Origin: a virus
Strand: one strand, 5' to 3'
DNA: 35,368 nt
Virus record (IMG/VR): IMGVR_UViG_3300011126_000040
Span: 1 to 35,368 of that record
Below, one piece after another: positions 7,755 to 35,186 of the stretch. How positions within the stretch are numbered: the first letter of the stretch is position 1; each line of letters starts with the position of its first letter. Below the pieces are notes generated by a model. It ran no database searches. It saw only the letters and a list, made by a program, of their open reading frames with translations, and was not told where the DNA came from. The position numbers and the translations under genes were made by a program.

Positions 7755-7757
7755 AGA

Positions 7758-7794: not shown

Positions 7795-7864
7795 GGAGAT
7801 AGCCAATGGATATTGCGATAACATTTTACTGACAAATTAAAAAACAGTCAATGGAGAGAAATTA

Positions 7865-9662: not shown

Positions 9663-9749
9663 GGAAGGTTGGCAGAGTGGCAATGCAGCAGTTTGCTAAA
9701 CTGTATACCTTAACGGGTATCAAAGGTTCGATCCCTTTACCTTCCGCCA
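9663..9749 (+). tRNA. tRNA-Ser (anticodon GCU)
   Basis: Acceptor stem GGAAGGT pairs with ACCTTCC, discriminator G, then encoded CCA (9747-9749). The anticodon arm is GCAGT/ACTGT with loop TTGCTAA, giving GCU, which reads AGC and AGU. The long variable arm (ATACC...GGTAT) is class II as required for serine. The T arm is AAAGG-TTCGATC-CCTTT. It is the only tRNA found in the window. Confidence 0.95.
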
Positions 9750-22447: not shown

Positions 22448-22469
22448 AATAGTGCATAAACGCACATAT
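22448..22469 (+). repeat. Dyad element, copy A
   Basis: One of three 22-bp copies sharing AATAGTG, central TAA and CACATAT. Its core GTGC...GCAC is centred 42.5 bp before the start expected for the -10 box TATACT at 22489, which lacks a good -35. This is the normal place for a class II activator. Confidence 0.75.
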
Positions 22470-22526
22470 AGTATTTGTTGTTTAACGCTATACTCTTAGG
22501 TGTTATTGTAACATCAGGACAAGGTA

Positions 22527-22865
22527 ATGATGGAAGTTATAATGGCATCTGAAAATGTCGCGCAAGAGATCAAAGCAATTCACAGTCGAATGGATCGTAT
22601 CGACGATGTTGTCGAGAAAATCTCAGAAGCCATCCACCAGATTTCCGTCGTGATTGAGCGCCAGAACCATTCAGAGCGTGCGCTTGCAGAGCTCAAAGCT
22701 GATATGAAGCGCGGCTTTGATAAGGTAGAAGACAAAATCAGCAAGCAGGATGAGAAGATCGAAAAGAGCAACGCCAAAATACTTTATTGGTCAGGCGGTC
22801 TTGCCACACTCGTTTTCGTGATCGGAATGGTTGTTGCTGTTATTCGTCCTTTGATCGGCGCATAA
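22527..22865 (+). CDS. Coiled-coil membrane protein, XhlA/holin-like
   Basis: A 112-residue protein with a long N-terminal coiled coil (IKAIHSRMDRIDDVVEKISEAI, EKISKQDEKIEKS) and one C-terminal membrane segment (ILYWSGGLATLVFVIGMVVAVI, about 86-107), the XhlA-type layout, likely involved in lysis or membrane function. AGGAC lies 7 bases before the ATG at 22527; ATG 22542 is an alternative. Its 3' end overlaps the leftward luxR-type gene by 26 bases. Dyad element A lies upstream. Confidence 0.75.
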   Translation: MMEVIMASENVAQEIKAIHSRMDRIDDVVEKISEAIHQISVVIERQNHSERALAELKADMKRGFDKVEDKISKQDEKIEKSNAKILYWSGGLATLVFVIGMVVAVIRPLIGA

Positions 22866-23148
22866 CCCGAACGATACGCGCCGGACGCGGTGGTCGCCGT
22901 GCTTCATCCAAATTCCCATGCATAGATACATAGCCAATCACACAAATCAAACCAGCCTTTGCCAGCTTGTAAACAGCTTCTATTGTTGTTGAGGCCCGAA
23001 GTTTGCAGCGCACTGTCGAAATGGTTTTATCAATGGCTGATCGTGAAATGCCAAGATCGAAAGCAGCCTGATCGTATGACCGGCCATGCGCAATCTTTTC
23101 AATAGCTGCCAACTGTTTTTTTGTGAATTGTGGCTTGACCTTATCCAT
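22840..23148 (-). CDS. LuxR-type HTH regulator (solo DNA-binding domain)
   Basis: A 102-residue protein. HGRSYDQAAFDLGISRSAIDKTISTVRCKL-like helix-turn-helix at about 20-50, then STTIEAVYKLAKAGLI, the closing helices of GerE/LuxR DNA-binding domains. There is no signal-binding or receiver domain: the protein is only the C-terminal half plus a basic tail (RRPPRPARIVRVMRR). It ends a leftward operon and overlaps the rightward membrane gene tail to tail. It could activate the three dyad elements; that link is inferred. Confidence 0.85.
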   Translation of the reverse strand: MDKVKPQFTKKQLAAIEKIAHGRSYDQAAFDLGISRSAIDKTISTVRCKLRASTTIEAVYKLAKAGLICVIGYVSMHGNLDEARRPPRPARIVRVMRRSKDE

Positions 23149-23191
23149 CAGAATGTTACTTTCAACTTGTTCACATCACTCACCGCTTCTG

Positions 23192-23230
23192 AACCCCCGT
23201 TACTTGTCTCTCCCTCGTAACGGGGGTTTT
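23192..23230 (+). terminator. Rightward terminator beyond the luxR-type gene
   Basis: AACCCCCGTTAC and GTAACGGGGGTT form a perfect 12-bp stem with a 13-base loop, followed by TT (23229-23230) and a T-rich tail. The T run is on the + strand, so it stops transcription coming from the membrane protein gene after it has crossed the leftward luxR-type gene antisense. Confidence 0.75.
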
Positions 23231-23233
23231 CTG

Positions 23234-23326
23234 TTACCATACCAGCATACAGACGAACGCTACACAGCACATAAACATTGCCAGCAGTACCGATGTCATA
23301 AAACCGTGTAAAATGTTGCGGATCAT
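23234..23326 (-). CDS. 30-residue single-membrane-segment protein
   Basis: A small frame found through its ATGA overlap with the upstream leftward gene. MIRNILHG is followed by a membrane segment FMTSVLLAMFMCCVAFVCMLVW. GGAG lies 6-12 bases before the ATG. It has the layout of phage micro membrane proteins. Function unknown. Confidence 0.55.
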   Translation of the reverse strand: MIRNILHGFMTSVLLAMFMCCVAFVCMLVW

Positions 23327-23541
23327 ACTCCGAACTCCCTCTTGATCACCTTGCGTTGATATTCTCTCATTCTGCTATTGTTTGTTATTTCTTCTTTCCA
23401 TTCTCTAATCTTCCACACGCGATCAAGAAGAACATGATATTTGGGGTAGCCACGGATGCTGTTGCATATAGACACATATTTCCCATCCTTGCCGTAAGGG
23501 TACGGGTCTATCTCTCTGTTTTGCTCCTCACTCCATTCCAT
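23323..23541 (-). CDS. Small protein, unknown
   Basis: A 72-residue basic protein (IDPYPYGKDGKYVSICNSIRGYPKYHVLLDRVWKIREW). Start ATG 23541 overlaps the preceding stop (TGATG); a GTG one codon earlier is possible. Rich in Lys, Arg and Tyr. No family recognised. Confidence 0.7.
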   Translation of the reverse strand: MEWSEEQNREIDPYPYGKDGKYVSICNSIRGYPKYHVLLDRVWKIREWKEEITNNSRMREYQRKVIKREFGV

Positions 23542-23792
23542 CACAACACCCTCTTAAACAATTCATGGTCCGTATCAACAGCACTAGCATCACCAACAAT
23601 GCCTGCATCAATCTCTGTGATCAGTGCCTTCATGGTTGCAGCCCGCATACGTAGGATCTCATCGCCGATCTGTTGAGTGTCACGCATGAGGCAAGCCCGG
23701 CGCACACGCCCCAACTGTTGACCGCGCACCTCTTGATCATCACGGACGGCAAGAAACCTGCCACATGGTTGCTTGAAAACGTTCAAATCCAT
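23541..23792 (-). CDS. Small helical protein, unknown
   Basis: An 83-residue protein (DDQEVRGQQLGRVRRACLMRDTQQIGDEILRMRAATMKALITEIDAG), probably all-helical. GGAGGA lies directly before the ATG, which is too close; a TTG two codons in may be the true start. It overlaps neighbours by 10 and 1 bases. No family recognised. Confidence 0.65.
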   Translation of the reverse strand: MDLNVFKQPCGRFLAVRDDQEVRGQQLGRVRRACLMRDTQQIGDEILRMRAATMKALITEIDAGIVGDASAVDTDHELFKRVL

Positions 23793-23977
23793 TCCTCCAG
23801 TTTCGGCCCCTCTGAATAGTTCACCAGATGCCCGTTAAGGTCATACGTCCAGAACCCGTGTGGTTGCGTCTCTGTCTCTGCGAAGGCGACCAGCACGGTA
23901 TCGTCTGAACGTTTTAACACCATTCCATACCGAGCTTGACCCTCATGTATGGCGGTTACTGTTGTTCCGGGTTTCAT
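23783..23977 (-). CDS. Small beta-barrel-like protein, unknown
   Basis: A 64-residue protein (GTTVTAIHEGQARYGMVLKRSDDTVLVAFAETETQPHGFWTYDLNGHLV). Its alternating strands resemble a small SH3-like fold. It overlaps the neighbours by 4 and 10 bases. Function unknown. Confidence 0.65.
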   Translation of the reverse strand: MKPGTTVTAIHEGQARYGMVLKRSDDTVLVAFAETETQPHGFWTYDLNGHLVNYSEGPKLEEWI

Positions 23978-24249
23978 TTACCTTGCTCCGCAGCTTGGAT
24001 CATTGCGCAGTAAATATCGTTGTAATGAACATTTTTACGGTATGTGCAATGATCTTCCATCATTACATCATACCCGGCGTTTTCCATATCACTCGTCGGT
24101 TCTTTCATCGCAGCTATGACGGCTTCTGCGTGTGGTATGTAGTTTTCCCACGCATTATAAGTGCAATCTTGGTCTACACTTCCGGGCCACTCAGGGTTAA
24201 TTCCATCTGCCTTGCATATCTCAATGGCAATCTTTTCTTTCATATTCAT
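23974..24249 (-). CDS. Small protein, unknown
   Basis: A 91-residue acidic protein (EICKADGINPEWPGSVDQDCTYNAWENYIPHAEAVIAAMKE). The type is common in phage early regions. ATG 24249 overlaps the previous stop as TGATG, with CAGGAG 8 bases upstream. No function is known. Confidence 0.7.
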   Translation of the reverse strand: MNMKEKIAIEICKADGINPEWPGSVDQDCTYNAWENYIPHAEAVIAAMKEPTSDMENAGYDVMMEDHCTYRKNVHYNDIYCAMIQAAEQGK

Positions 24250-24665
24250 CACATAAACTCCTGTACATGCTGTTCAAGTTCACGGCTATCAATGCCCGGC
24301 AAAATATCACGGCACACAACATTAATCGCTCGTTTGTAAAAGTCGTTGAATGCTACCTGATCCATTGATCCGAAGTTGATGGACTTTGGCAGCATGACTT
24401 CGCCTTGCTTGGTTCTGACAACATCACAGTGCCCGACTCGGATACTGATCAATTGCTTTACGATCCTTTCAGGCTGATCAATCTGATCCCCGATCACCCG
24501 GCACAATGCCCAAAACTTACGATGGTGACGGATGTTTCGCGGCTTGCTAATCGAACATTTAACGATTTCATCAATGTCAAGCTGTTCAACCTCTTGCTTG
24601 TCAGATGGGTTCACTGGTGCAAGCAACCGTCCCGCCGTGCGTTTAAGATAGATGTTACGAGGCAT
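24249..24665 (-). CDS. DUF1367 family protein
   Basis: A 138-residue phage protein. YLKRTAGRLLAPVNPSD, then ISKPRNIRHHRKFWALC and LPKSINFGSMDQVAFNDFYKRAINVV, the family's ordered motifs. The start at ATG 24665 is chosen because homology begins there; a longer frame has no ribosome site. DUF1367 sits among recombination genes in many phages; function unknown. It overlaps the neighbour by 11 bases. Confidence 0.85.
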   Translation of the reverse strand: MPRNIYLKRTAGRLLAPVNPSDKQEVEQLDIDEIVKCSISKPRNIRHHRKFWALCRVIGDQIDQPERIVKQLISIRVGHCDVVRTKQGEVMLPKSINFGSMDQVAFNDFYKRAINVVCRDILPGIDSRELEQHVQEFM

Positions 24666-24858
24666 CAGGAGAACCAGGCAAATATTCAAAGAATGTTGGT
24701 TGGGCATCTTTATTTAAGCATGAATGACAGGACCATTTCCCATCGCCATCGTATTTACTTGAATAATGCCCGCTCATCGCCCCGTAAGGAGGGACATACA
24801 GAAGCAGTCTACGTCCATCTCGTGGCGCTAGGTGAATAGGCTTCCAGTCAGCTCTCAT
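24655..24858 (-). CDS. DUF551-like small protein
   Basis: A 67-residue protein with the DUF551 opening DWKPIHLAPRDGRRLLLYVPP, and a CHSC segment. ATG 24858 lies behind GGAGAG. It overlaps the HNH-like gene by 11 bases. A longer frame upstream is a shadow of that gene. Function unknown. Confidence 0.75.
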   Translation of the reverse strand: MRADWKPIHLAPRDGRRLLLYVPPYGAMSGHYSSKYDGDGKWSCHSCLNKDAQPTFFEYLPGSPDAS

Positions 24859-25162
24859 TACTTTCTCTCCATAATTCCTTAGCCAAAGCCACACCATCAA
24901 TCCCATGACCGGCAAGGAACGAAACTTCATCCCCTGATCGGTCGTGTAAGTCTGAATGACACATATGGCACATCGGTATGACCCATTCATCGCCAGCACG
25001 TAGACCCATTCCACGTACCGGACCCCTTAGCAAATGGTGAGCATGTGAAGGCCCGCCAGCGCCACAACAACAGCAAGGCATTGCCCGTACATTTGCAAGA
25101 TGGAGTTCATCCACAAATCGTTTAGGCTTGATCCTGCCATGATTGAGTTTTTTACTAAGCAT
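24848..25162 (-). CDS. HNH nuclease-like protein (DUF968-type)
   Basis: A 104-residue protein. A Cys cluster (MPCCCCGAGG, about 29-37), then HAHHLLRG (40-47) and PMCHMCHSDLH (63-73) give the zinc-binding HNH arrangement. GMGLRAGDEWVIPMC is typical of DUF968/phage recombination nucleases. It overlaps the Rad52-like gene by 8 bases, which suggests a shared recombination or junction-processing role. Confidence 0.85.
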   Translation of the reverse strand: MLSKKLNHGRIKPKRFVDELHLANVRAMPCCCCGAGGPSHAHHLLRGPVRGMGLRAGDEWVIPMCHMCHSDLHDRSGDEVSFLAGHGIDGVALAKELWRESNES

Positions 25163-25823
25163 CCTTCATCGCCAACGCTTCGAGTTTATCATCAATGGCA
25201 TCCATGATCTGACCATGCACGACCTTTGACAAATTCATCACCTCGTCAATTTTTGGCTGGTGCTTTGTTACAAGCGCCTTGACAGCATCCGTTGTTTCTT
25301 TGGTATTAAGGACCGTCAAGAACTTGTCGCGAAATCCTTCCGCCTTTTCCTGAGGTGGCTTCTCTGGCGCTTTTACATTGTCGCCGGACTTGTCATATAG
25401 AGCCAGGCCAAACGGATTGCCGAACTTGCGAAAGGCGCGTTTCTCTGCATCACTTTCGGCTTCTTTGATTGCCCCCTCATGGGCCTTGCCAACATCAGCA
25501 TCAATACCATTACCAAAGCCTGTTCCTTCTTTGACAACATCGCCAACAGTAATGCGAACCTTTGCTACGTAGGCTACATTAAAGCCGGGCTTTTCGTATT
25601 GTCCGCCCTTACCGATAACACAGTCTTTCTCTGAAACCATGTTGGTAAAGATCGTTTCACTTGACCATCCACCGAAACCGAAGACTTGGTTTGCAAGATC
25701 AATCGCATACCAGCTTTCGATGTAGCTCATCTGGTTACTACCGACGGTGCGCTGTTTGACGTGCCTTGGGTCTAACGGCCCGGAAAGCTTTTCAGAAGCC
25801 TTTGACCAATCAATTTCCTGCAT
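25155..25823 (-). CDS. Rad52-like single-strand annealing protein
   Basis: A 222-residue protein starting at ATG 25823. YIESWYAIDLANQVFGFGGWSSETI and VRITVGDVVKEGTGFGNGIDADVGKAHEGAIKEAESDAEKRAFRKFGNPFGLALYDK form the Rad52/22-type core, as in phage Sak-like annealases. The C-terminal third is charged and likely helical. It pairs complementary single strands in phage recombination-dependent replication. A frame extended to 25868 adds 15 untypical residues. Confidence 0.9.
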   Translation of the reverse strand: MQEIDWSKASEKLSGPLDPRHVKQRTVGSNQMSYIESWYAIDLANQVFGFGGWSSETIFTNMVSEKDCVIGKGGQYEKPGFNVAYVAKVRITVGDVVKEGTGFGNGIDADVGKAHEGAIKEAESDAEKRAFRKFGNPFGLALYDKSGDNVKAPEKPPQEKAEGFRDKFLTVLNTKETTDAVKALVTKHQPKIDEVMNLSKVVHGQIMDAIDDKLEALAMKDA

Positions 25824-26061
25824 TCTCGAGCTCCTCAATTGCCTGTTTAACTTTGTCGGCGGCTTCACCTAATAGGCCAGCCGCCCGTACATGCCCGATC
25901 CACGTAACCCCGCACATATCGTTTCGCTTGTCACGAATGCGCTCTTGGATAATGCGGAGGTATTGCACTTCGTTTTCCAGCGGAAAGCTCTTGACGACCT
26001 TTTCCGTACCAGTGCCCCAACCGGGTATATCAAATGGCTTGCCAGTGTCTTTGATGTTCAT
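25810..26061 (-). CDS. Small protein, unknown
   Basis: An 83-residue protein (SFPLENEVQYLRIIQERIRDKRNDMCGVTWIGHVRAAGLLGEAADKVKQAIEEL), mainly helical, starting at ATG 26061. It overlaps the annealase gene by 14 bases and the NinX gene by 4. Possibly an accessory to the annealase; no family recognised. Confidence 0.7.
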   Translation of the reverse strand: MNIKDTGKPFDIPGWGTGTEKVVKSFPLENEVQYLRIIQERIRDKRNDMCGVTWIGHVRAAGLLGEAADKVKQAIEELENAGN

Positions 26062-26468
26062 GATTGCACCAATTCGTCTGGTATTTCGATTTCGTCTTTG
26101 CAACGGTTGATGTATTTAACGATGCATAGACATGCTGCTTGAAGTGGCGTTGATCCGTGCATTATGACCTCAATATCCGGGTGGTCCTCAAATACTGCGT
26201 GAATCTTAGCGATATACCCGTCAGTATCCGGCATAAGATAGACTTCGTATTTTGGAATTAGAGGGCCGCCATGAGCCCAGTTGCCAGATGGGTTGAATTC
26301 GTCATCCTGAATGGCCTTTGGCTTTTCTCGCACGATCACTTGCGGTTCATCTGGGCTTCCAGTGTCGAAGCAGTGCCAATTTCCTGCGGGACGTGATTTA
26401 CCCCACAAACACACAGCAGCCGCATAGTTAAGCGCACGGCCTTCAAGTTCAGATACCTTGACTTTCAT
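26058..26468 (-). CDS. NinX-like protein, DUF2591
   Basis: A 136-residue protein with the DUF2591 opening MKVKVSELEGRALNYAAAVC, then FNPSGNWAHGGPLI and the C-terminal ACLCIVKYINRCKDEIEIPDEL. Length and motif order match NinX-like phage proteins, whose role is unknown. ATG 26468 overlaps the preceding small gene as ATGA. The frame extended upstream is another gene. Confidence 0.88.
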   Translation of the reverse strand: MKVKVSELEGRALNYAAAVCLWGKSRPAGNWHCFDTGSPDEPQVIVREKPKAIQDDEFNPSGNWAHGGPLIPKYEVYLMPDTDGYIAKIHAVFEDHPDIEVIMHGSTPLQAACLCIVKYINRCKDEIEIPDELVQS

Positions 26469-26644
26469 TGCGCAATCCCTTCGAAAATCTCGGAAGCCCG
26501 CTGAATATATGGCTGGGCAAGAATAACCATTCCGATAAACAGAAATTCGAACGCCGCCACTGCCAAGCACCAGATAACAAGATCATTAGTTACCGCACTC
26601 GGTGCATCTTGCTGAGACTTTGATTGGTTTTCCTCGCTCGTCAT
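26465..26644 (-). CDS. 59-residue membrane protein, overlapping
   Basis: A small frame read from the ATGA junction with NinX. A hydrophilic start (MTSEENQSKSQQDAPS) precedes one membrane segment VIWCLAVAAFEFLFIGMVILA and a charged tail. GAGGAG lies upstream. It begins 59 bases inside the end of the preceding gene in another frame. Function unknown. Confidence 0.6.
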   Translation of the reverse strand: MTSEENQSKSQQDAPSAVTNDLVIWCLAVAAFEFLFIGMVILAQPYIQRASEIFEGIAQ

Positions 26645-26918
26645 GGCCTATCTCCTCAAAGTTTCCAACGCGACCGCCACAACATGTTTTGCATGGCTCT
26701 TGGCATTGTTTGATTTCACGTTCCATCCCGCTGATCTTAACACCAACAGTGTCGTCTATCATGGATGACAGGTAGCCCTTGACTATCTCCATATCCTCGT
26801 CTGACAGATTGCATTCACGCGCCCACCAGAGAACATCAGACCGCATTGATTCACACTTCACACGATAACGCTCTATCTGTGTGGCAATGCCTTTAATATG
26901 CTCATCAAGGCCGCTCAT
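26586..26918 (-). CDS. Zinc-ribbon small protein
   Basis: A 110-residue protein: helical N-terminus (HIKGIATQIERYRVKCESM), then a Cys cluster (CQEPCKTCCGGR) and a closing CTEC, which together could bind zinc. ATG 26918 overlaps the upstream stop (ATGA). Likely nucleic-acid or protein binding; function unknown. Confidence 0.7.
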   Translation of the reverse strand: MSGLDEHIKGIATQIERYRVKCESMRSDVLWWARECNLSDEDMEIVKGYLSSMIDDTVGVKISGMEREIKQCQEPCKTCCGGRVGNFEEIGHDERGKPIKVSARCTECGN

Positions 26919-27082
26919 TTCTCACGCTCGTTTTCGTACTTGATAAGCGCGTCGTATAGATAACCGGGGATTTCTTCCCATTTTGTTATGGTGTGATTTT
27001 CAATTGCCCAATAGAATTTCGATCCTTCTTGATCAACGTGCAACCCGCCATAGTATCCAGTTATTTTGCCAATCTGTTCCAC
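26915..27082 (-). CDS. Small protein, duplicate copy 2
   Basis: A 55-residue protein starting at GTG 27082 behind AGGAGAG. It contains DQEGSKFYWAIENH and KWEEIPGYLYDALIKYENE, matching the next gene over much of its length. It was too short for standard gene calling. Together with copy 1 it is a tandem duplication. Confidence 0.75.
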   Translation of the reverse strand: MEQIGKITGYYGGLHVDQEGSKFYWAIENHTITKWEEIPGYLYDALIKYENEREK

Positions 27083-27092
27083 ATCAACTCTC

Positions 27093-27263
27093 CTATAGTT
27101 TCTCGCGCTCTATTTCGTATTTGATAAGTGCACCATACAAGTACCCGGGTATTTCTTCCCAGCGGCGTCCTGAATGATCTTCGATAGACCAATAGAACTT
27201 GTCGCCTTCTTGCTTAACAGTAATGAAATCGTAGTAATCCCGATTTCCTCCAATGCACATCAT
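27093..27263 (-). CDS. Small protein, duplicate copy 1
   Basis: A 56-residue protein starting at ATG 27263 (or 27260). It contains KQEGDKFYWSIEDH and RWEEIPGYLYGALIKYEIE, parallel to copy 2. TGG at fixed places and an acidic/aromatic pattern are shared. The pair lies in the same leftward operon, 10 bases apart. No function recognised. Confidence 0.75.
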   Translation of the reverse strand: MMCIGGNRDYYDFITVKQEGDKFYWSIEDHSGRRWEEIPGYLYGALIKYEIEREKL

Positions 27264-27278
27264 GCCAACTCTCCGCCA

Positions 27279-27494
27279 TCACAGGTCGTTATAAACATCA
27301 ATTGCATCTTGAAGCCCGATGGTATCGTGAACAACATCATCTCCATCCTCTACAAGAAACGTAAAATTGCGTGTGTTGTAGTCAGCTACCATATAAAGCC
27401 GCTTATTCGATACGATACCGTGCGATGCGGCAAGTGTAATGGAGGCATCACATCGACCGATCAATTCGTCGTAGCTAACTGTGTGCTTCTTCAT
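27279..27494 (-). CDS. First gene of the leftward operon, unknown
   Basis: A 71-residue protein (SYDELIGRCDASITLAASHGIVSNKRLYMVADYNTRNFTFLVEDG) starting at ATG 27494 behind AAAGGAG. It is the first gene after the leftward promoter. No family recognised. Confidence 0.7.
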   Translation of the reverse strand: MKKHTVSYDELIGRCDASITLAASHGIVSNKRLYMVADYNTRNFTFLVEDGDDVVHDTIGLQDAIDVYNDL

Positions 27495-27520
27495 ACTAAA
27501 TCTCCTTTGTTTGATAACGA

Positions 27521-27548
27521 ACCATACCATACATTGCGGACGTGTCAA
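27521..27548 (-). promoter_or_regulatory. Leftward early promoter
   Basis: On the minus strand TTGACA (27548-27543), 16-base spacer, TATGGT (27526-27521), then a short leader to the ATG at 27494. The -35 box is the start of a TTGACA-CGTC-CGCAAT copy (27548-27533). Confidence 0.7.
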
Positions 27549-27571
27549 TAATTATTTATGCAAAAAAGTGT

Positions 27572-27616
27572 TTGACATACACGCAATCAATCAGCATACT
27601 TTGACACATACGCAAT
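27572..27616 (+). promoter_or_regulatory. Rightward early promoter with two operator-like copies
   Basis: TTGACA (27572-27577), 17-base spacer, CATACT (27595-27600). The repeated TTGACA-N4-CGCAAT occurs at 27572-27587 and 27601-27616; the second copy covers the transcription start. With the leftward copy there are three, all with the same 4-base gap. A Cro-like protein is encoded directly downstream. Confidence 0.7.
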
Positions 27617-27629
27617 CGAGGGTTAGCGA

Positions 27630-27830
27630 ATGAAACATAAAGAGATCATCGAAAAGTGGGGTACACCTGCTGAATTAAGTAAGGACTTGGGGCTTGGCTA
27701 CCAACAGGTGTATGGGTGGTTCCGTCGCAACAGCATCCCCACTGGATATTGGGAGCGTGTCGTAACAGCCGCCACGTTACGAGGAATTGACGGTGTTGAT
27801 TTTAATGCACTTTGGAGCGGTAAAAAGTGA
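27630..27830 (+). CDS. Cro-like HTH regulator
   Basis: A 66-residue protein. IIEKWGTPAELSKDLGLGYQQVYGWFRRNSIPTGYWERVVTAATLRGIDGV is the pattern of small Cro/CI-like phage regulators (carph-isopro type). The recognition helix is likely LGYQQVYGWFRRN. It is the first rightward early gene and should bind the operators in the divergent region. GAGGG lies 8 bases before the ATG. It overlaps the RusA gene by 4 bases. Confidence 0.85.
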   Translation: MKHKEIIEKWGTPAELSKDLGLGYQQVYGWFRRNSIPTGYWERVVTAATLRGIDGVDFNALWSGKK

Positions 27831-28186
27831 TCTACAGGTTTAAGTTGACATTCCCCCATAGTGAGCTGTCACCGAACGCGCCGCATAGCAATTACCGTGT
27901 GAAGAATAACCACAAGAAGAAGTTCAAAGAGCTGATACATAAGGAATGCTTGGCGCAAGGTGCAAGGAAATTAACCGGAAAGGACGTGTCTGTGTGGGCT
28001 ACGTTCTATCCACCTGACAAGCGCCGTAGGGACTTCGATAATCAGATAGCGTCTTTCAAAGCAGGATTTGACGGTATCGCGGATGTAATCGGAGTTGATG
28101 ACTATGACTGGAGCTGGCGGCTTGACAACAGCAAAGAGCCGCTTGGATGTGTGATCGTACAGGTTGAAACACTGGAGAGTGAATGA
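27827..28186 (+). CDS. rusA: RusA-like Holliday junction resolvase
   Basis: A 119-residue protein starting at GTG 27827. SPNAPHSNYR and the catalytic block KRRRDFDNQIASFKAGFDGIADVIGVDD carry Asp 69, 71 and 91/92, corresponding to the acidic residues of E. coli RusA. It would cut branched DNA made during replication and recombination before packaging. Confidence 0.92.
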   Translation: MIYRFKLTFPHSELSPNAPHSNYRVKNNHKKKFKELIHKECLAQGARKLTGKDVSVWATFYPPDKRRRDFDNQIASFKAGFDGIADVIGVDDYDWSWRLDNSKEPLGCVIVQVETLESE

Positions 28187-28434
28187 TGACCATTATCCCA
28201 TCAGAATACAACGGAACACCAGCAGAGCGTTGCTCATTTGTTATGAGTGATGTTCCTGCCAAGCATCCTTTGAAGCAAGCAGAGGAGATACTAGCCCGCC
28301 AAGGCAAGTCTGCGCATTACAACGCACGTACTGGCGAGGTGACGTTAAGCGGATACCGCCTACCCGCTGTGATGTTTGTGAACATGGCAAACAAATACAC
28401 CACCCAACCAATCAAATACCCCGGAGCATACTAA
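28183..28434 (+). CDS. Small protein, unknown
   Basis: An 83-residue protein (HPLKQAEEILARQGKSAHYNARTGEVTLSGYRLPAVMFVNMANKY). ATG 28183 overlaps the resolvase stop; ATG 28186 is better spaced from GGAGAG. It sits directly before SSB and overlaps it by one base. No function known. Confidence 0.7.
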   Translation: MMTIIPSEYNGTPAERCSFVMSDVPAKHPLKQAEEILARQGKSAHYNARTGEVTLSGYRLPAVMFVNMANKYTTQPIKYPGAY

Positions 28435-28847
28435 TGTTGAATAAATGCGAATTTATCGGACGTGTTGGCAAAACACCTGAGACGAGACACACACAGGCAG
28501 GAACAAAGGTTGTTTCGTTCTCGCTGGCGGCAACTGAAAGCTGGAAGAACCAGCAAGGCGAAAAGCAAGAGCGCACAGAATGGGTGAATTGCACCTGTTT
28601 CGGTAATAGCCGTGGCGATGGCTTGGCAGGCGTTGTTGAAAAGTATGTTGGCAAGGGCGATCTGATTTACATCTGTGGCAAAATGCAGACGGATAAATAT
28701 CAGAAAGATGGTCGCGATGTTTACACCACCAAGATCGTTGTCGATGACATGAAGATGTTGGGCGGCAAAGGTGATGGCGGTCAATCGAGCCAAGGCGGTA
28801 ATACTGGTGGTGGCGAACCTGACCTAAGTGATGAGATACCTTGGTGA
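28434..28847 (+). CDS. ssb: Single-stranded DNA-binding protein
   Basis: A 137-residue SSB. An OB fold starts MLNKCEFIGRVGKTPETRHTQAG, followed by VVSFSLAATESWKNQQGEKQERTEWVNCTCFG and KYVGKGDLIYICGKMQTDKY. A Gly/Gln-rich linker leads to the acidic tip DLSDEIPW; cellular SSBs end in PF here, so a Trp replaces the Phe. It covers single strands in replication and recombination. Confidence 0.96.
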   Translation: MLNKCEFIGRVGKTPETRHTQAGTKVVSFSLAATESWKNQQGEKQERTEWVNCTCFGNSRGDGLAGVVEKYVGKGDLIYICGKMQTDKYQKDGRDVYTTKIVVDDMKMLGGKGDGGQSSQGGNTGGGEPDLSDEIPW

Positions 28848-28900
28848 TCAACAACTTAGCGGCTGTCTTAGCCGACAGTCGCAACACACCGGAGAGAGTT

Positions 28901-29110
28901 ATGACTGATCAAAAATTAAAGCCGTGCCCCTTTTGTGGGGCTTCGCACGTCAACGATACGGACGTTTCATGCCTGCCATCAGTTGCATCAGCATTATTTG
29001 ACGACTCATACAATTGGGTTTGTCCAGATTGTGCTTGCAGCGGACCTGCTGGCGTGACGATTGAAGAAGCAACTGAGTTGTGGAACCAAAGACAATGGTG
29101 GGAAGCATGA
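28901..29110 (+). CDS. Lar-like restriction alleviation protein
   Basis: A 69-residue protein starting at ATG 28901 with GGAGAGAG upstream. LKPCPFCGAS and VCPDCACSGPAG with EEATELWNQR give the Lar-type zinc ribbon (Cys 9, 12, 41, 44). Lar proteins modulate host type I restriction. The frame extended upstream to 28841 lies in another gene's end and lacks a ribosome site. Confidence 0.85.
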   Translation: MTDQKLKPCPFCGASHVNDTDVSCLPSVASALFDDSYNWVCPDCACSGPAGVTIEEATELWNQRQWWEA

Positions 29111-29352
29111 CTGATGCGGAAATGCGTGTATCACAGTTTTTGTTAAGCATTCAGGTTCGGTCGCCACGAACAACAAAAGCCTTGGCGACAGTGCATGCTG
29201 GCGGGTTTGAGGCTGTTCTCTTGAAGGACATTAAACAGATTCTCGAAGACCTTGCCGAACAACGAATGCTATGCGACCTATACCGTAAAGAAGCCCTAGG
29301 CCGTGCTGGAAGCAACGCTGCTGAGCACATGGCACAACATGATTTGACTTAG
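29107..29352 (+). CDS. Small helical protein, unknown
   Basis: An 81-residue protein (DAEMRVSQFLLSIQVRSPRTTKALATVHAGGFEAVLLKDIKQILEDLAEQ), helical and charged. ATG 29107 overlaps the Lar stop as ATGA. No family recognised. Confidence 0.7.
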   Translation: MTDAEMRVSQFLLSIQVRSPRTTKALATVHAGGFEAVLLKDIKQILEDLAEQRMLCDLYRKEALGRAGSNAAEHMAQHDLT

Positions 29353-29361
29353 GAGAGTGAT

Positions 29362-29883
29362 ATGGACATTAAACAGTTCAAGCCGAAGAATATCAAACGA
29401 TCTGACAAGTTCAGTGCCAATCTTTTCAAATTCATGCGTAAGAACGAATCATGGGGATTGCACGTATATTCTCCACAAATTGATTGGAACATGAATTTTC
29501 AGAAGTTCAATTATGATGATCCACGCACGCGCAGTATATATATTGGCTTTCGTGACGATCAAGGTTGGCTTGTAGGCCGATGCTTGGCGGATATCATTTG
29601 CGCTGATCGTAACGTTACTGAGTGCTACGCATATTCGCCTGGTAAAGATGATGTTTTTTACAGAAACATGATTGAAATCAGCGATTGGTTTTTCACAGAA
29701 TATGCTCGTATTGGTCGAGCGCTATGGGACAAAGAAGGCGCAAACTTCATGATTGGAAGTGAGAATCGTTTTACGATTGTAGGGAATACTAAGCGGTGCA
29801 ATTGGTCCGGGCGTTGGTACGAAAAGAAGATAACGAAAAAACAAACTACAGAACGCAAAGAAAAATGGGTTATTCAGTCATGA
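29362..29883 (+). CDS. Unknown protein, aromatic-rich
   Basis: A 173-residue protein with many Trp, Tyr and Phe (ESWGLHVYSPQIDWNMNFQKFNYDDP, GWLVGRCLADIICADRNVTECYAYSPGKDD). Strong GGAG 8-9 bases before the ATG. The Lys-rich end (KKITKKQTTERKEKW) could touch nucleic acid. No family recognised. Confidence 0.75.
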   Translation: MDIKQFKPKNIKRSDKFSANLFKFMRKNESWGLHVYSPQIDWNMNFQKFNYDDPRTRSIYIGFRDDQGWLVGRCLADIICADRNVTECYAYSPGKDDVFYRNMIEISDWFFTEYARIGRALWDKEGANFMIGSENRFTIVGNTKRCNWSGRWYEKKITKKQTTERKEKWVIQS

Positions 29884-30038
29884 CCACACAAGAAGCAACC
29901 AAACGCATTCTAAGCGATGACTGCCACTATTTCGGTGATCTAGCCGAGAAGCACCAGAGCATGCCGCTAGCAACCCTGTACGAGCGCCATATCAAGCTGT
30001 ATGAACAATATTTGCTTGGCACTCGTGTATTACATTGA
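29880..30038 (+). CDS. Small protein, unknown
   Basis: A 52-residue protein (EATKRILSDDCHYFGDLAEKHQSMPLATLYERHIKLYEQYL) starting at ATG 29880, overlapping the previous stop (ATGA). A frame extended upstream is the wrong frame of the previous gene. Confidence 0.65.
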   Translation: MTTQEATKRILSDDCHYFGDLAEKHQSMPLATLYERHIKLYEQYLLGTRVLH

Positions 30039-30049
30039 TGGAGAGAAAG

Positions 30050-30457
30050 ATGGGATGTGACATTCACGCTCACGTAGAGCTTAAAATAAACGGACAGTGG
30101 CACCATTACGACCAGCCACGTATACAGCGCGATTACAAGCTGTTTGCACGAATGGCAAACGTTCGCAACGAGGACGGCATTACACCAATCTCAGAACCGA
30201 GAGGCTTGCCGGATGACATTACGTTTATCGTTAAGTTTGATAGTGATCATTGTGGGAGCGATGGTCATAGTCACAGTTATCTCACTTCGGAAGAAATGGC
30301 AGAACTTGACCGAGAATGTCAAAACTCTGATTCATACGCCGATTGGGTGACTTTTGGATATTTGTTTGGTGGCCACTATTGTTATTACTTTGACTATCCT
30401 GATGAGCGTACAGAAGGTGTCGAAGATTTCCGTTTGGTGTTCTGGTTCGATAACTGA
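30050..30457 (+). CDS. Conserved phage/bacterial protein of unknown function
   Basis: A 135-residue protein of a conserved type: MGCDIHAHVELKINGQWHHYDQPRIQRDYKLFARMANVRNEDGITPISEPRGLPDD, then HSHSYLTSEEM. His, Asp and Cys clusters suggest a metal site. Start ATG 30050 has GGAGAG 4-9 bases upstream; longer frames start at 30035/30038. Function unknown. Confidence 0.85.
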   Translation: MGCDIHAHVELKINGQWHHYDQPRIQRDYKLFARMANVRNEDGITPISEPRGLPDDITFIVKFDSDHCGSDGHSHSYLTSEEMAELDRECQNSDSYADWVTFGYLFGGHYCYYFDYPDERTEGVEDFRLVFWFDN

Positions 30458-30493
30458 TTGACCACCGCCATATGAAGGCGTATAAAATAAAGA

Positions 30494-30518
30494 CCCCGCG
30501 ATGCGCAAACATCCGGGG
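30494..30518 (-). terminator. Leftward intrinsic terminator
   Basis: On the minus strand CCCCG-GATG pairs with CATC-(bulge)-CGGGG, then TCTTTATTTT. The T run lies only on that side, so the terminator serves leftward transcription although the flanking genes run rightward. Confidence 0.6.
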
Positions 30519-30585
30519 CACGAGGCAGCGAAATAGTTTTGGAAGACTTTCTCTTAGCCGCCTGAGGTTGATACTAAAGCAATTA

Positions 30586-30792
30586 TCAAAATTTGCAATT
30601 AGCATTATCAACGAAATCTTTAAAATCTTCCCACGGTTTGGACGCTTCCCGCATAAAAACGTCAAAAAATTCCGCTCTGCTTGCCAGCAACGGGAACCTG
30701 CAAGAACCGGCAACACCGGGATGCTTTGCTTTTCGGATGCAGTTCCATCCATCTGACCAATGGAAACAATGCATTCGGGATTTGTCCGGCAT
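30586..30792 (-). CDS. Possible reverse-strand small gene
   Basis: A 68-residue frame with plausible composition: FHWSDGWNCIRKAKHPGVAG, FPLLASRAEFFDVFMREA, PWEDFKDFVDNANCK. An internal ATG at MHCFHW is a possible start. No ribosome site or promoter is visible, but the leftward terminator is just downstream. Rival forward frames look less protein-like. Confidence 0.35.
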   Translation of the reverse strand: MPDKSRMHCFHWSDGWNCIRKAKHPGVAGSCRFPLLASRAEFFDVFMREASKPWEDFKDFVDNANCKF

Positions 30793-30824
30793 ACATAAGG
30801 GACAAGGGAGTATGTAAGGAAGGT

Positions 30825-30968
30825 ATGCCTTGCATGGCGGTGACGCCGAAGGGAAACTTAGTATCCGGCCTTATGGCTTCCAGTGGTCTTGGACTGCATG
30901 ACAGGACAGTGGTTCTGGTAGATTGCAGGGAGAAAAGGCACTTAATAGGTGAGCAGTTATCAAGATAA
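30825..30968 (+). CDS. Possible small protein, unknown
   Basis: A 47-residue frame (MPCMAVTPKGNLVSGLMASS, HDRTVVLVDCREKRHLI) with AAGGAAGG directly upstream. It ends 13 bases before the next ribosome site. The stretch 30458-30980 otherwise holds no convincing rightward gene. Confidence 0.35.
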   Translation: MPCMAVTPKGNLVSGLMASSGLGLHDRTVVLVDCREKRHLIGEQLSR

Positions 30969-30987
30969 GTAAGACAGGAGAGTGGAT

Positions 30988-31356
30988 GTGTCTGGATTTA
31001 ATTACTGTGAAAATGAACCAACGGAAGAATGCCCGTATTGCAAAACCGTTTGCTACGCAGACTGGGTTGACGTTGGTGTTGGGATGGTTCAGTGCGGACC
31101 GTTTCATTGTAATGAATGTAGCGCTTCTGAGATCGGTATGTTCGATGAAAAGAGAGATATAACAAAGGTGGAAAATGATTGTGGGTGGTATAAACCAAAT
31201 ACAGAGCCGGGAAGCTCTGCAAATGTTATCAACGGCAGGATTGTTTCGTATATTCAAATGAGAGATGCATATCAGCGTGAATTCTACGCAAACCAAAAAT
31301 GGCACGATAAAGATTATGTTGAGGATTGGTGGGAAAAAACGAGAAATGGAGAGTGA
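30988..31356 (+). CDS. Zinc-ribbon protein, unknown
   Basis: A 122-residue protein. CPYCKTVCYADW and QCGPFHCNECSASEIG give two Cys pairs for a zinc ribbon. The C-terminal half (VINGRIVSYIQMRDAYQREFYANQKWHDKDYVEDWW) is aromatic and helical. GTG 30988 is spaced 8 bases from AGGAG; GTG 30982 would be too close. A nucleic-acid role is possible. Confidence 0.7.
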   Translation: MSGFNYCENEPTEECPYCKTVCYADWVDVGVGMVQCGPFHCNECSASEIGMFDEKRDITKVENDCGWYKPNTEPGSSANVINGRIVSYIQMRDAYQREFYANQKWHDKDYVEDWWEKTRNGE

Positions 31357-31358
31357 AG

Positions 31359-31415
31359 ATGCTGAGCGCCAAGTTGGATGCTGTCATAGCTAAAGTCAAA
31401 AAATCGGAAAAGTAA
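31359..31415 (+). CDS. Possible 18-residue coupling peptide
   Basis: A short frame (MLSAKLDAVIAKVKKSEK) with GGAGAG 6-7 bases upstream. Its TAA overlaps the ATG of the next gene (TAATG). It may serve translational coupling or be a micropeptide. Confidence 0.35.
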   Translation: MLSAKLDAVIAKVKKSEK

Positions 31416-31861
31416 TGGAAAACGAAGCGGTAAGGATGTGGAACGAGATAGCTAAAGAGCTTGGTCTGTCTCAGGTGATGAAACTAACCAAAGCACGCAA
31501 AGCACGGTTGAAAGCCCGTCTAAAGGATTGTGATGGTTTGGAAGGCTGGCAATACGCACTGACCAAAATGGCAAACACACCATGGATGATCGGTGAAAAT
31601 GCCCGTGGTTGGAAAGCCAACTTTGACTTTATGTTGCAAGAAAGCAGTTTTGTTAAACTAATGGAGGGAGCCTATGAACCTAGTACCAAGCAAACCACTT
31701 GCCGAGCTAAACCCATCAGAAACCAGACAGGCTTTGAAAGTCTATTGCAGTCCTTTGAAGAACCTGACACCGATCACCAATCAGGATTACGAGATAACGG
31801 GGTTCAAGGTGACTGGAATCCTGCCAGAAGCGGCACGGGCGACCTGTTTGGAGAAGGTTAA
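31415..31861 (+). CDS. Replication-module protein
   Basis: A 148-residue protein. MWNEIAKELGLSQVMKLTKARKARLKARLKDCDGLEGWQYALTKMANTPWMIGENARGWKANFDFMLQESSFVKLMEGAY matches the C-terminal domain of phage replication/initiator-type proteins, here as a free protein. The last 55 residues overlap the next gene in another frame. It likely helps load the replication complex. Confidence 0.75.
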   Translation: MENEAVRMWNEIAKELGLSQVMKLTKARKARLKARLKDCDGLEGWQYALTKMANTPWMIGENARGWKANFDFMLQESSFVKLMEGAYEPSTKQTTCRAKPIRNQTGFESLLQSFEEPDTDHQSGLRDNGVQGDWNPARSGTGDLFGEG

Positions 31862-32273
31862 GCTCTCCCTCCTGCCTGCAAGCAAAGAACAGATCAAGCA
31901 AGCCATCATCTTTTGTGGGGCAAACACCGCTGGCAGGGATGAAAACGAAACAGCGAAGAAGCTACGCAACGCTGCAATGTTCGAGGAGTTCAGTAAATAC
32001 CCTGCTGATTTGGTGATTAGCGCACTCAGGACATGGCACGAAAACAACAAGTGGTTTCCAGATACAGGGGATATTGTCCGGGCTGTAAAGCAGGAAACAA
32101 ATGCCCGCAAATCACTGGTAGCAGCTTTGTCTACGCCAACAGAGAAGGCGAAGAAAGAGACAGCGCGAAAGTGGGATGATTTAACGGACGAAGAAAAGGC
32201 CAATCACGAGCAAAAAAGCAAGCGTGTATTGGATATGTGCAAGGTTGCCGGTCAGAAAATGAAGGTGAGTTGA
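31674..32273 (+). CDS. Phage replication-associated protein
   Basis: A 199-residue protein starting at ATG 31674 behind a strong GGAGGG. The core LLPASKEQIKQAIIFCGANTAGRDENETAKKLRNAAMFEEFSKYPADLVISALRTWHENNKWFPDTGDI resembles phage proteins found next to helicase/initiator genes. It overlaps the previous gene by 188 bases in another frame. A Lys-rich C-terminus follows. No helicase motifs are present. Confidence 0.75.
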   Translation: MNLVPSKPLAELNPSETRQALKVYCSPLKNLTPITNQDYEITGFKVTGILPEAARATCLEKVKLSLLPASKEQIKQAIIFCGANTAGRDENETAKKLRNAAMFEEFSKYPADLVISALRTWHENNKWFPDTGDIVRAVKQETNARKSLVAALSTPTEKAKKETARKWDDLTDEEKANHEQKSKRVLDMCKVAGQKMKVS

Positions 32274-32274
32274 A

Positions 32275-32667
32275 ATGAAAAAAGCTAAATACTTACAAGT
32301 TAGTGCAGGTGTTCGGTATTGGGATGATGGGTCTGTCGATGGAGTAGAGGACACAGAAGGAACGCTGATTCCATTTGGAGGAGGAGATTACTGGGACATT
32401 AAAATAGACATTGAGACAGGTTTTATTGTCGATTGGCCTACAGGTGTATCAGCGTCTGTTCATTATAAAGTTTGCGATGATGGGCACTACAATTTGCAAT
32501 CAGAAGATGGCGAAACGCTAGAGACGCATGAAGGATATGCTATTAGCTGCATGTCTCCTGAAAAAAATGGGTATGGTGATTATATCATCATGAGCATAGA
32601 TAATTTGGGGCATATTCGCGGCTGGGATAGCGACGCCGTATTCGAAGATTTTTCGTATGATCGGTAA
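32275..32667 (+). CDS. Conserved phage protein, unknown
   Basis: A 130-residue protein of a familiar phage type: YLQVSAGVRYWDDGSVDGVEDTEGTLIPFGGGDYW, then IDIETGFIVDWPTGVSASVHYKVCDDGHY and MSPEKNGYGDYIIMSIDNLGHI. Beta-rich and acidic. Function unknown. ATG 32275 follows the previous stop at once. Confidence 0.8.
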   Translation: MKKAKYLQVSAGVRYWDDGSVDGVEDTEGTLIPFGGGDYWDIKIDIETGFIVDWPTGVSASVHYKVCDDGHYNLQSEDGETLETHEGYAISCMSPEKNGYGDYIIMSIDNLGHIRGWDSDAVFEDFSYDR

Positions 32668-32676
32668 TGACGTGTA

Positions 32677-32793
32677 ATGACTGACCTGATAGCAGAACTA
32701 ACCAAACTAGCACACAAGAACAGCGGTCTAATGTGGACCCACCGCAAGCTGATACAGCGGGCGATTGATGGAATGGAGAGAGCGAAGTTATGA
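32677..32793 (+). CDS. 38-residue protein, unknown
   Basis: A short frame (MTDLIAELTKLAHKNSGLMW, THRKLIQRAIDGMERAKL) that overlaps the next gene as ATGA. Charged and helical. Its coupling to the next gene supports translation. Confidence 0.55.
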   Translation: MTDLIAELTKLAHKNSGLMWTHRKLIQRAIDGMERAKL

Positions 32794-33023
32794 AACTGTC
32801 AACAAAGCAGCAAGAGATAGTCGAAGACATGCAGAAGGGTAGCATTATTTATTGCTATCACGAACATGGCGAGACCAAATACAGGACAATGATGGGCACC
32901 TGTGAGCGCCTCAATTTGAGCGTGTCAACTTTTAGCGTCCTGTTAAGCCGTGGCATCATTTTGCCCAACAACGATGGGTTATTCGGTGACAGTCAGACGT
33001 GGAGGCTATCAGATGGCGACTGA
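32790..33023 (+). CDS. Possible HTH-containing small protein
   Basis: A 77-residue protein. KQQEIVEDMQKGSII and TCERLNLSVSTFSVLLSRGII read like winged-helix proteins; the second part could be a recognition helix. GGAGAG lies 8 bases upstream. It may regulate early genes, but the family is not certain. Confidence 0.65.
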   Translation: MKLSTKQQEIVEDMQKGSIIYCYHEHGETKYRTMMGTCERLNLSVSTFSVLLSRGIILPNNDGLFGDSQTWRLSDGD

Positions 33024-33210
33024 TTGCAACGGTAACGACATAAAGCCGGGTGATTTCGTTTGTCATCTATACCCAAATTCGTTTGAAGGGTTTGGTGGCA
33101 GGATAGAGGTTAGTGAAGTAGGCACGACTACAGTCACGCTGAAAGATGTAAATAGAAGCAGAATACCTGTTTTCTTGGCTAAAAAATGCATGGTCGTTAA
33201 TGGTCCGTAG
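33013..33210 (+). CDS. Small beta-rich protein, unknown
   Basis: A 65-residue protein (IKPGDFVCHLYPNSFEGFGGRIEVSEVGTTTVTLKDVNRSRIPVFLAKKC) resembling a small beta barrel. It overlaps the previous gene by 11 bases. Function unknown. Confidence 0.65.
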   Translation: MATDCNGNDIKPGDFVCHLYPNSFEGFGGRIEVSEVGTTTVTLKDVNRSRIPVFLAKKCMVVNGP

Positions 33211-33232
33211 GGTATAGGTAACACCACCTTTG

Positions 33233-33254
33233 AATAGTGTGTAAGTACACATAT
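33233..33254 (+). repeat. Dyad element, copy B
   Basis: Second 22-bp copy. Its core GTGT...ACAC is a covarying pair relative to copy A (GTGC...GCAC). A -10-like CATGAT at 33274-33279 puts it at -42.5, as for copy A. It lies upstream of the exported-protein gene. Confidence 0.75.
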
Positions 33255-33298
33255 TGGCGATTATCAAAAGTTGCATGATCCTTATACCGGGACAACTG

Positions 33299-33314
33299 GT
33301 CTAAGGAGTTAGAC
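33299..33314 (+). promoter_or_regulatory. Hairpin presenting the ribosome site in its loop
   Basis: GTCTAA-GGAG-TTAGAC: a perfect 6-bp stem whose 4-base loop is the Shine-Dalgarno GGAG, ending at the base before ATG 33315. Confidence 0.5.
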
Positions 33315-33953
33315 ATGAAAAAGCTTTTGATTGCTGGCATGTTGCTGGCATTTTCTTCACCGGCGATGGCGTTTGATTTCGGCGGTGGTAACAACGGTGG
33401 CAACAAGAACACCAACGAGAACACCAATTTGCAGGGGCAGGCGCAAGGTCAGCTACAGGCGCAGGGCCAAGCACAGGCAGCGGTTGCTATCAGTGGCGGT
33501 AATGAACAGGCAAACAGTCAGGCTGTGACCGTCCATGGCGATGAAGCACCGGACATTCCTGTTTCGTCTGCATATGCTCCGGGTCTGACTTCAAGCAACG
33601 GTTCGTGCATGGGAAGTTCGTCGGGTGGCGCTCAGGGTATGGGCTTTGGCCTTTCAATCGGGTCTACTTGGATGGACGAAGATTGTGACCGTCGATATGA
33701 CGCGAACACCCTTTCGAAGCTTGGCGCACCAGAAGCCGCGCTCGCTCTGATGTGTCAGAAAGCAGACGTTGCCGAAGCACTTAAGAAATCAAGCCCGGCA
33801 AAGTACAATGCTTACTGCGCACAGCCGGAAGTAAAAACTGCCGAAGCAAAGCAGTCCAAGCCGGTTAATGTTGCAAGCCGTGGTTGGTTCACGTCAACCG
33901 ATGGCAGCATTTGCCACAGCGAGTACAAGCCGTCTTGTGTTCGCCCTGAGTGA
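33315..33953 (+). CDS. Exported phage protein, Gln-rich
   Basis: A 212-residue protein with a signal peptide MKKLLIAGMLLAFSSPAMA (cleavage likely after AMA, residue 19). Then an Asn/Gly stretch, a Gln/Ala repeat (GQAQGQLQAQGQAQAAV, about 41-58), and the conserved block SAYAPGLTSSNGSCMGSSSGGAQGMGFGLSIGSTWMDEDCDRRYDA, seen in many phage exported proteins. C-terminal Cys residues could form disulfides in the periplasm. Preceded by dyad element B. Function unknown; an envelope role at infection or lysis is possible. Confidence 0.85.
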   Translation: MKKLLIAGMLLAFSSPAMAFDFGGGNNGGNKNTNENTNLQGQAQGQLQAQGQAQAAVAISGGNEQANSQAVTVHGDEAPDIPVSSAYAPGLTSSNGSCMGSSSGGAQGMGFGLSIGSTWMDEDCDRRYDANTLSKLGAPEAALALMCQKADVAEALKKSSPAKYNAYCAQPEVKTAEAKQSKPVNVASRGWFTSTDGSICHSEYKPSCVRPE

Positions 33954-33965
33954 TTAGGTGCCTCC

Positions 33966-34154
33966 ATGAAAGCAGTATTTCACAACTACGGTGTGTGTCT
34001 GTCTGAGAGCATGGAGGCATTACGCTATGCGATAGAGAACGACCTAACGGAATTTCTCTACCACAAAGAAAACGCCACAATCTGGATAAACAGGACGGAC
34101 GGGACATGGGAAATAAAAGCAAAAACAGTAAGTCCGGGTTTTCGGGTGGTCTGA
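33966..34154 (+). CDS. Small protein, unknown
   Basis: A 62-residue protein (GVCLSESMEALRYAIENDLTEFLYHKENATIWINRTDGTWEI) with CCTCC just upstream and only a weak ribosome site. It overlaps the next gene by 49 bases. No family recognised. Confidence 0.6.
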   Translation: MKAVFHNYGVCLSESMEALRYAIENDLTEFLYHKENATIWINRTDGTWEIKAKTVSPGFRVV

Positions 34155-34339
34155 TTTATTCGATCATGATGGTGGCATGTGTCGGGGGTGGCATTGGTGC
34201 CGTGCTGATAGGGAGTATCTATTACCTATACGCACGGCACTATTTGCATTCTTGGGACGTTGATTTCGCAATTACGATCACGTTTGCCGGGCTAGCATCG
34301 TTTGTAATCGGCGGGTTGATGGCTTTAGCGCATAAATAG
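34106..34339 (+). CDS. Two-membrane-segment small protein
   Basis: A 77-residue protein with two membrane segments: GLIYSIMMVACVGGGIGAVLIG (about 15-36) and FAITITFAGLASFVIGGLMAL (about 54-74). It overlaps the preceding gene by 49 bases in another frame. It could be a holin, antiholin or exclusion protein; there is no direct evidence. Confidence 0.65.
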   Translation: MGNKSKNSKSGFSGGLIYSIMMVACVGGGIGAVLIGSIYYLYARHYLHSWDVDFAITITFAGLASFVIGGLMALAHK

Positions 34340-34356
34340 TGTGTAAATGCACATAT
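34335..34356 (+). repeat. Dyad element, copy C
   Basis: Third 22-bp copy, with core GTGT...GCAC (one mismatched pair). A TACAAT -10 box at 34379-34384, flanked by AAGGG and CCCTT, puts it at about -45.5. It begins inside the last codons of the preceding gene. Confidence 0.75.
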
Positions 34357-34406
34357 GTTTTTCCCCATGTGTAAAGGGTACAATCCCTTAAACATGGAGG
34401 TTTATC

Positions 34407-35186
34407 ATGCATTACGGCGTTCACAAGGCCATCGAAGAAATCAAAAACTCATATGGGCATGACGTTTTTATCAAGCCTAAGCTGTTGATTAAGTTCGGGT
34501 CTGTTACGACGGTCGGGACGTCCGAAGAAACGATCATGGAAATGCCCGGTTCCGTCACCAGTGAGACATTTCAGACAGACAACACCATTGATAGTCTGGT
34601 TGTGGATGACACGTTCACAGGTGATGTGCGGATTGAAGGCCATACAATCTCTGGCGGCAATCTTACATTTGTGGTGCAATCAGCCACATGCACCAGTGAA
34701 ACACCAGTCACCCTAACAACGCCATTGGCACGGGTTACACGGGTATACAACAACAGCGCAGCAGCTATGCCAGCCAATTCGACGCTGTATATCTATCGGT
34801 CTGGCGATACGACGGTTACTGGCGGTGTGCCGCAGACTGACAGTGCTGTAAATATCATCATGAATGCAGAGAATAACCAAAGCCTCAAATGCAGCACGTC
34901 ATTTAGCCAATATGACTATGGAATATGCACAAGAATATGGGCATCAGTCGCCAAGAAAACACAAGGCGGCGCGGTTATCCGGGTCAAGATTAGGGAAATA
35001 GGGAGGCAATTCCGAACCATTCAGAAATTCGGTGTGAACAGTTTGGGCGGTAAGGTCATGCTAGACTATGACCAACCGTTAATCTTTCCAATCAACAGTG
35101 ATGTGATTATGACGGCCGAGGCCGACGCAAACGGCACAGAAGTAACAGGATCAATCGGTGTTTTCTTTGGCAAAATACCTGAATAA
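34407..35186 (+). CDS. Probable virion protein
   Basis: A 259-residue beta-rich protein. KPKLLIKFGSVTTVGTSEETIME, VRIEGHTISGGNLTFVVQSATC and VTLTTPLARVTRVYNNSAAAMPANSTLYIYRSGD are typical of a conserved phage structural family, often decorating heads or tails. A strong GGAGG lies 7-8 bases before the ATG. It follows dyad element C. Virion placement is from family resemblance, not shown here. Confidence 0.75.
   Translation: MHYGVHKAIEEIKNSYGHDVFIKPKLLIKFGSVTTVGTSEETIMEMPGSVTSETFQTDNTIDSLVVDDTFTGDVRIEGHTISGGNLTFVVQSATCTSETPVTLTTPLARVTRVYNNSAAAMPANSTLYIYRSGDTTVTGGVPQTDSAVNIIMNAENNQSLKCSTSFSQYDYGICTRIWASVAKKTQGGAVIRVKIREIGRQFRTIQKFGVNSLGGKVMLDYDQPLIFPINSDVIMTAEADANGTEVTGSIGVFFGKIPE

Follow-up and report, generated by a model that had tools for sequence, protein, structure and literature searches.

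Class II activation is recognized by the position of the activator site, which is centred near -41 to -46 and overlaps or replaces the -35 box of the promoter. The lux box is centred at -42.5 (PMC3376562), class II tra boxes lie at about -45 (PMC3907764), and at the Pm promoter of phage Mu the Mor site is centred at -43.5, where it replaces the -35 box of a phage promoter (PMC4390567). A 22 base-pair (bp) element that occurs three times in the IMG/VR virus record IMGVR_UViG_3300011126_000040, each time upstream of a rightward gene, appears to be a site of this type. The whole record of 35,368 bases was analysed; it is referred to here as the window, and all coordinates are taken from it.

The element lies on the + strand at 22448-22469 (AATAGTGCATAAACGCACATAT), 33233-33254 (AATAGTGTGTAAGTACACATAT) and 34335-34356 (AATAGTGTGTAAATGCACATAT), and is invariant at 17 of 22 positions, just as a sequence-only reading of the same DNA had reported. 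From the end of each copy to the ATG of the following gene the distance is 57 bp (22527-22865), 60 bp (33315-33953) and 50 bp (34407-35186). A motif search of the window that allowed up to three mismatches returned these three copies and nothing else; shuffled versions gave a mean of 0.09 matches, 0 of 100 shuffles yielded three, and the expectation falls to 0.01 when the five variable positions are limited to the transitions observed. In the 100 bp on either side of the copies, 10 of 200 columns are identical, compared to 12.7 expected, and because the flanks agree only at chance level the element is a bounded unit rather than part of a recently duplicated promoter region. For random 22-mers on either strand, the probability of all three ending 45-65 bp upstream of gene starts is about 5e-6, a figure that uses a hand-curated list of starts and assumes independence. 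Copy 3 is not entirely intergenic, as it shares bases with the stop codon of the open reading frame (ORF) before it (34106-34339). The core dyads read GTGC-N6-GCAC, GTGT-N6-ACAC and GTGT-N6-GCAC in copies 1 to 3. The covariation that had been claimed for the inner pair (positions 8 and 15) holds for two copies, with C/G and T/A, but not for the third, whose T/G is non-complementary; the dyad is real but imperfect.

Downstream of the three copies are the predicted -10 boxes TATACT (22489-22494), CATGAT (33274-33279) and TACAAT (34379-34384), all on the + strand and 19, 19 and 22 nucleotides after the element, where the sequence-only reading had placed them. A scan with the sigma-70 consensus gave no -35/-10 pair using any of these boxes, in agreement with the claim that a good -35 box is lacking. 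If transcription starts 7 nucleotides after each -10 box, the dyad centres would fall at -42.5, -42.5 and -45.5, as had been proposed, and within the class II range. The divergent early promoters at 27521-27600 provide a contrast (TTGACA-16-TATGGT on the - strand and TTGACA-17-CATACT on the + strand), and a search of this control region for a possible operator found no copy of the element. Since the early promoters have a perfect TTGACA and lack the element, the element would seem to replace the -35 box at a separate promoter set. Position, the missing -35 box, the contrast with the TTGACA promoters and the restriction of conservation to the 22-mer together support, from promoter anatomy, the reading of the element as a class II activator-type site; that its activator is a regulator of the phage itself is plausible. 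The main idea of the sequence-only reading is correct in form.

The gene behind copy 1 (22527-22865, + strand) encodes a small coiled-coil protein carrying a membrane helix at its C terminus, and the one behind copy 2 (33315-33953, + strand) an exported protein with a signal-peptide-like start that matches phrog_20531 (4e-32), a group of unknown function. For the gene behind copy 3 (34407-35186, + strand) the sole finding is a weak match to phrog_8198, likewise of unknown function, and the label "virion-like" once given to its product is unsupported. It is the last gene before a short basic ORF at about 35217, and in a circular or permuted genome the terminase genes would come next. Two of the promoters are found where the early and the late rightward genes meet, and one just past the lysis genes; these locations would suit a middle or late burst of transcription.

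Proteins of the LuxR/GerE kind bind such dyads as dimers. Among the window proteins that were scanned (about 37, not every ORF), the best candidate for a reader of the element is a stand-alone helix-turn-helix (HTH) protein of GerE/LuxR type, 102 amino acids long and encoded on the - strand at 22840-23148; the Mor, Ogr, RinA/ArpU and Q families found no match among the same proteins. Its gene is the last in a leftward operon with a TTGACA promoter and shares 26 bp, tail to tail, with the coiled-coil gene. The profile of this protein and eleven phage relatives matches LuxR-type HTH structures in the PDB (RhlR at 5e-10, with QscR, SdiA, GerE and TraR, the matches ranging from 5e-10 to 1e-5), and GerE is matched by all 12 of its 12 members. 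A low-confidence single-sequence fold has the four GerE helices, at residues 10-20, 25-32, 36-47 and 56-65, and with the profile this agrees with the four-helix HTH of about 65 residues by which GerE membership is defined. Because the HTH begins at residue 7, there is no autoinducer or receiver domain of the classic LuxR and NarL proteins, and only the single-domain GerE type fits. When the predicted structure was compared to the PDB no match reached E<0.1, and GerE-type domains led the list. The convergent HTH/coiled-coil gene pair is kept in Vibrio phages 1.144.O, 1.178.O, ValSw3-3, jenny 12G5, 1.137.O, 14E30.1 and 1.135.O, and also at three IMG/VR loci (L250-L252); a single-sequence search of IMG/VR found no relatives of the HTH gene or of two of the target genes. 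In Rhizobium phage RHph_Y1_10 (L203:23000-23721), a related stand-alone LuxR-type gene directly follows a GcrA-like gene upstream of the terminase genes, a position typical of a late regulator. No multi-copy dyads stood out in that Rhizobium phage.

The mechanism proposed here adds transcription starts, activation, timing and HTH protein binding to what can be seen directly, namely the three sites and where they lie, the lack of a -35 box, and an HTH gene with relatives. A dimeric transcription activator would bind the 22-bp element, which would occupy the place of the -35 box at three rightward sigma-70 promoters, and RNA polymerase would start at these promoters only on contact with the activator, in the class II manner known for LuxR at its lux box and for Mor in phage Mu. 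In this way three accessory or late genes might receive an extra burst of middle or late transcription, and the most likely reader would be the phage's own stand-alone LuxR/GerE-type protein. Class II activation of the three promoters by this HTH protein is put forward tentatively, as somewhat below an even chance.

Several observations weigh against it. The window has three copies only, CATGAT of copy 2 is a weak -10 box (4 of 6 positions), and the spacing from element to -10 box is 3 bp longer at copy 3 than at copies 1 and 2. The single-sequence fold of the HTH protein has a mean predicted local distance difference test score (pLDDT) of only 62, the protein taken alone scores under the Pfam GerE cut-off, and the two arginines with which TraR presumably reads its half-sites correspond, in an alignment by eye, to Asp and Ser. 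No usable orthologues of the three target genes were found, so that there were no orthologous promoters to compare. In addition, Vibrio phages related through the HTH gene have dyads with the same GTG-N8-CAC layout as the window element but with the CRP consensus, and pYD38-B (7 dyads) and 1.016.O (3 dyads) carry them without an HTH gene.

The Vibrio comparison deserves a closer account. Eleven dyad-rich siphophages (P23, 1.144.O, ValSw3-3, 1.178.O, pYD38-B, 1.216.O, jenny 12G5, 2E1, 1.137.O, 14E30.1 and 1.135.O; loci L196, L197, L202, L204, L205 and L220-L234) each have 6-11 perfect TGTGA-N6-TCACA dyads, where <0.1 would be expected per genome. Every one of the 10 Vibrio phages with the HTH gene has 6-11 perfect sites of this form, and six Vibrio phages that lack the HTH gene have zero. 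An obligatory pairing of the HTH gene with GTG-N8-CAC dyads, which held for all ten HTH-bearing phages, is nevertheless broken by pYD38-B and 1.016.O, and these two genomes lower confidence in the HTH protein as the reader. The best -10 box lies exactly 21 nucleotides downstream in 63 of 97 Vibrio phage dyads (a set that includes pYD38-B), the base after TCACA is G in 42 of 52, and in several cases the dyads stand 64-89 bp before the ATG of small accessory genes. In sequence and spacing these are class II CRP sites, and service by host CRP is the likelier and simplest reading of them. The dyads look like an unusually large class II CRP promoter set for phages.

In the window, two features of a CRP site were looked for and neither is present. 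The window contains 0 exact and 3 one-mismatch TGTGA-N6-TCACA sequences against 1.0 expected, none of which are the elements, and the CRP class II centre of -41.5 is missed, the spacing being 1 and 4 nucleotides longer than at the Vibrio phage sites. In their GTGY half-sites and longer spacing the elements speak against CRP itself and suit LuxR-type geometry somewhat better. What the Vibrio comparison supports is the general design, with phage accessory genes placed downstream of class II dyads; it does not support a necessary role for the HTH protein as reader.

In the collections searched, which may lack its near relatives, this phage alone seems to carry the exact element as a repeated site. 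An exact 15-base version had 112 single matches in 2.9 million viral contigs of IMG/VR, about the chance level, and among the matches that were inspected none had a TAnnnT box at the window spacing (23 nucleotides after CAC). Terminase relatives of 40-53% identity (the best 80 of 255 loci) included none with two good copies. Many copies in host genomes had been named beforehand as the sign of a host site; among about 85,000 genomes, one per species, there were 4 scattered single matches in unrelated taxa, a search whose exact pattern would miss a degenerate host motif.

A host factor, of the CRP/FNR family or of LuxR type, may read the sites in class II fashion and couple the three accessory genes to host physiology. 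This is a serious possibility, if well short of probable. CRP sites have the identical GTG-N8-CAC layout, the 63 well-spaced sites of the eleven Vibrio phages are of this kind, dyads are kept where the HTH gene is absent, and the target genes resemble accessory genes. Against these points stand the GTGY rather than GTGA core, the departure from a constant CRP class II spacing and the finding that no species genome has more than one exact copy. A repressor could likewise act from a dyad at the -35 region, and the window does encode a Cro/YdaS-like protein (27630-27830); the three dyads could then be operators at which a phage repressor covers the -35 region and shuts off the accessory genes. 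The expected place of a lysogeny or Cro operator is, however, at the divergent early promoters, where no copy is found, and a promoter without a usable -35 box would leave little basal activity to repress, so that such a role is improbable.

It is more improbable still that the element works at the RNA level or as a signal for recombination or packaging. Small hairpins of -5.2 to -5.5 kcal/mol can form from the 22-mers, but these are short and have no T-run on the + strand, the copies share one orientation and a constant distance of 50-60 bp to the start codon, and the unpaired TAA and the flanks are conserved as much as the arms. As for chance likeness of three promoter regions, the small number of copies is all that speaks for it, and with the shuffling result and the placement probability given above it is barely credible.

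The remainder of the window gives the setting of these promoters. Its proteins include an HK97-type capsid, a terminase and a siphovirus tail, with a lysis-like region at about 21.4-22.4 kb. A leftward block encodes Rad52-like, NinB/Orf-like and NinX proteins; the rightward block begins with the Cro/YdaS-like gene at 27630, followed by an SSB-like protein and replication genes. With a short basic ORF starting near 35217 at one end and the small terminase gene at 206 at the other, the record probably represents an almost complete, permuted genome. The tail-tip protein is nearest to those of phages of Roseobacter, Pelagibacter and Rhizobium, an affinity that suggests an alphaproteobacterial host; capsid and terminase comparisons leave the host question undecided. 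At 19156-19388, in the same tail-tip protein, the motifs FFGPDDFFG and FFGSDDFFG are repeated, and derive from an 18-bp direct repeat. Adjoining the early control region, at 26918-27218, are two partly diverged blocks with a 181-bp period (63- and 44-nucleotide matches), and a tRNA-Ser (GCT) gene lies at 9663-9749 amid the late genes. An FkbM-type methyltransferase and an MptE/DUF115-like protein are encoded within the structural gene cluster (6446-9449), a pairing that suggests glycan-modifying cargo.

The element is a credible switch for phage genes, of a rather ordinary kind. If the HTH protein reads the dyad, the two would form a compact activator-promoter pair, and a function would be found for a small HTH family of Vibrio and perhaps Rhizobium phages whose members are now labelled hypothetical or "sigma factor". 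Should a host factor be the reader, phage accessory genes would be tied to the physiology of the host, a link that the CRP-type sites of the Vibrio phages suggest. A wider proposal is that phages have a family of ligand-free, single-domain LuxR-type proteins that are encoded where the late operon ends, each tail to tail with a small coiled-coil membrane gene, and that serve as dedicated class II activators of accessory and late genes and in the window would read a private dyad in place of the CRP-type sites of distant Vibrio relatives; as a whole this is doubtful, and is offered as a possibility.

In comparison with known systems, the lux and tra boxes are dyads of 18-20 bp at -42.5 or about -45, close to the window centres of -42.5, -42.5 and -45.5 calculated from predicted starts, and the candidate protein of the window has a LuxR-type HTH. 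The tra box core is also GTGC-N6-GCAC. The window protein differs from LuxR and TraR as a stand-alone HTH without an autoinducer domain, and its DNA-reading residues are not those that TraR is taken to use. With the class II CRP sites of the Vibrio phages the window shares a GTG-N8-CAC dyad just upstream of a promoter that lacks a -35 box, ahead of small accessory genes; it departs from them in its half-sites (GTGY vs GTGA), its centre (-42.5/-45.5 vs -41.5) and its number of copies (three vs 6-11). Relative to Mu, the window has no Mor/C match in the proteins scanned, the dyad sequence is another one, and three promoters are involved rather than one. Mu Pm under Mor is still the closest phage precedent, as a phage sigma-70 promoter without a -35 box that has a dyad at -43.5 in its place (PMC4390567).

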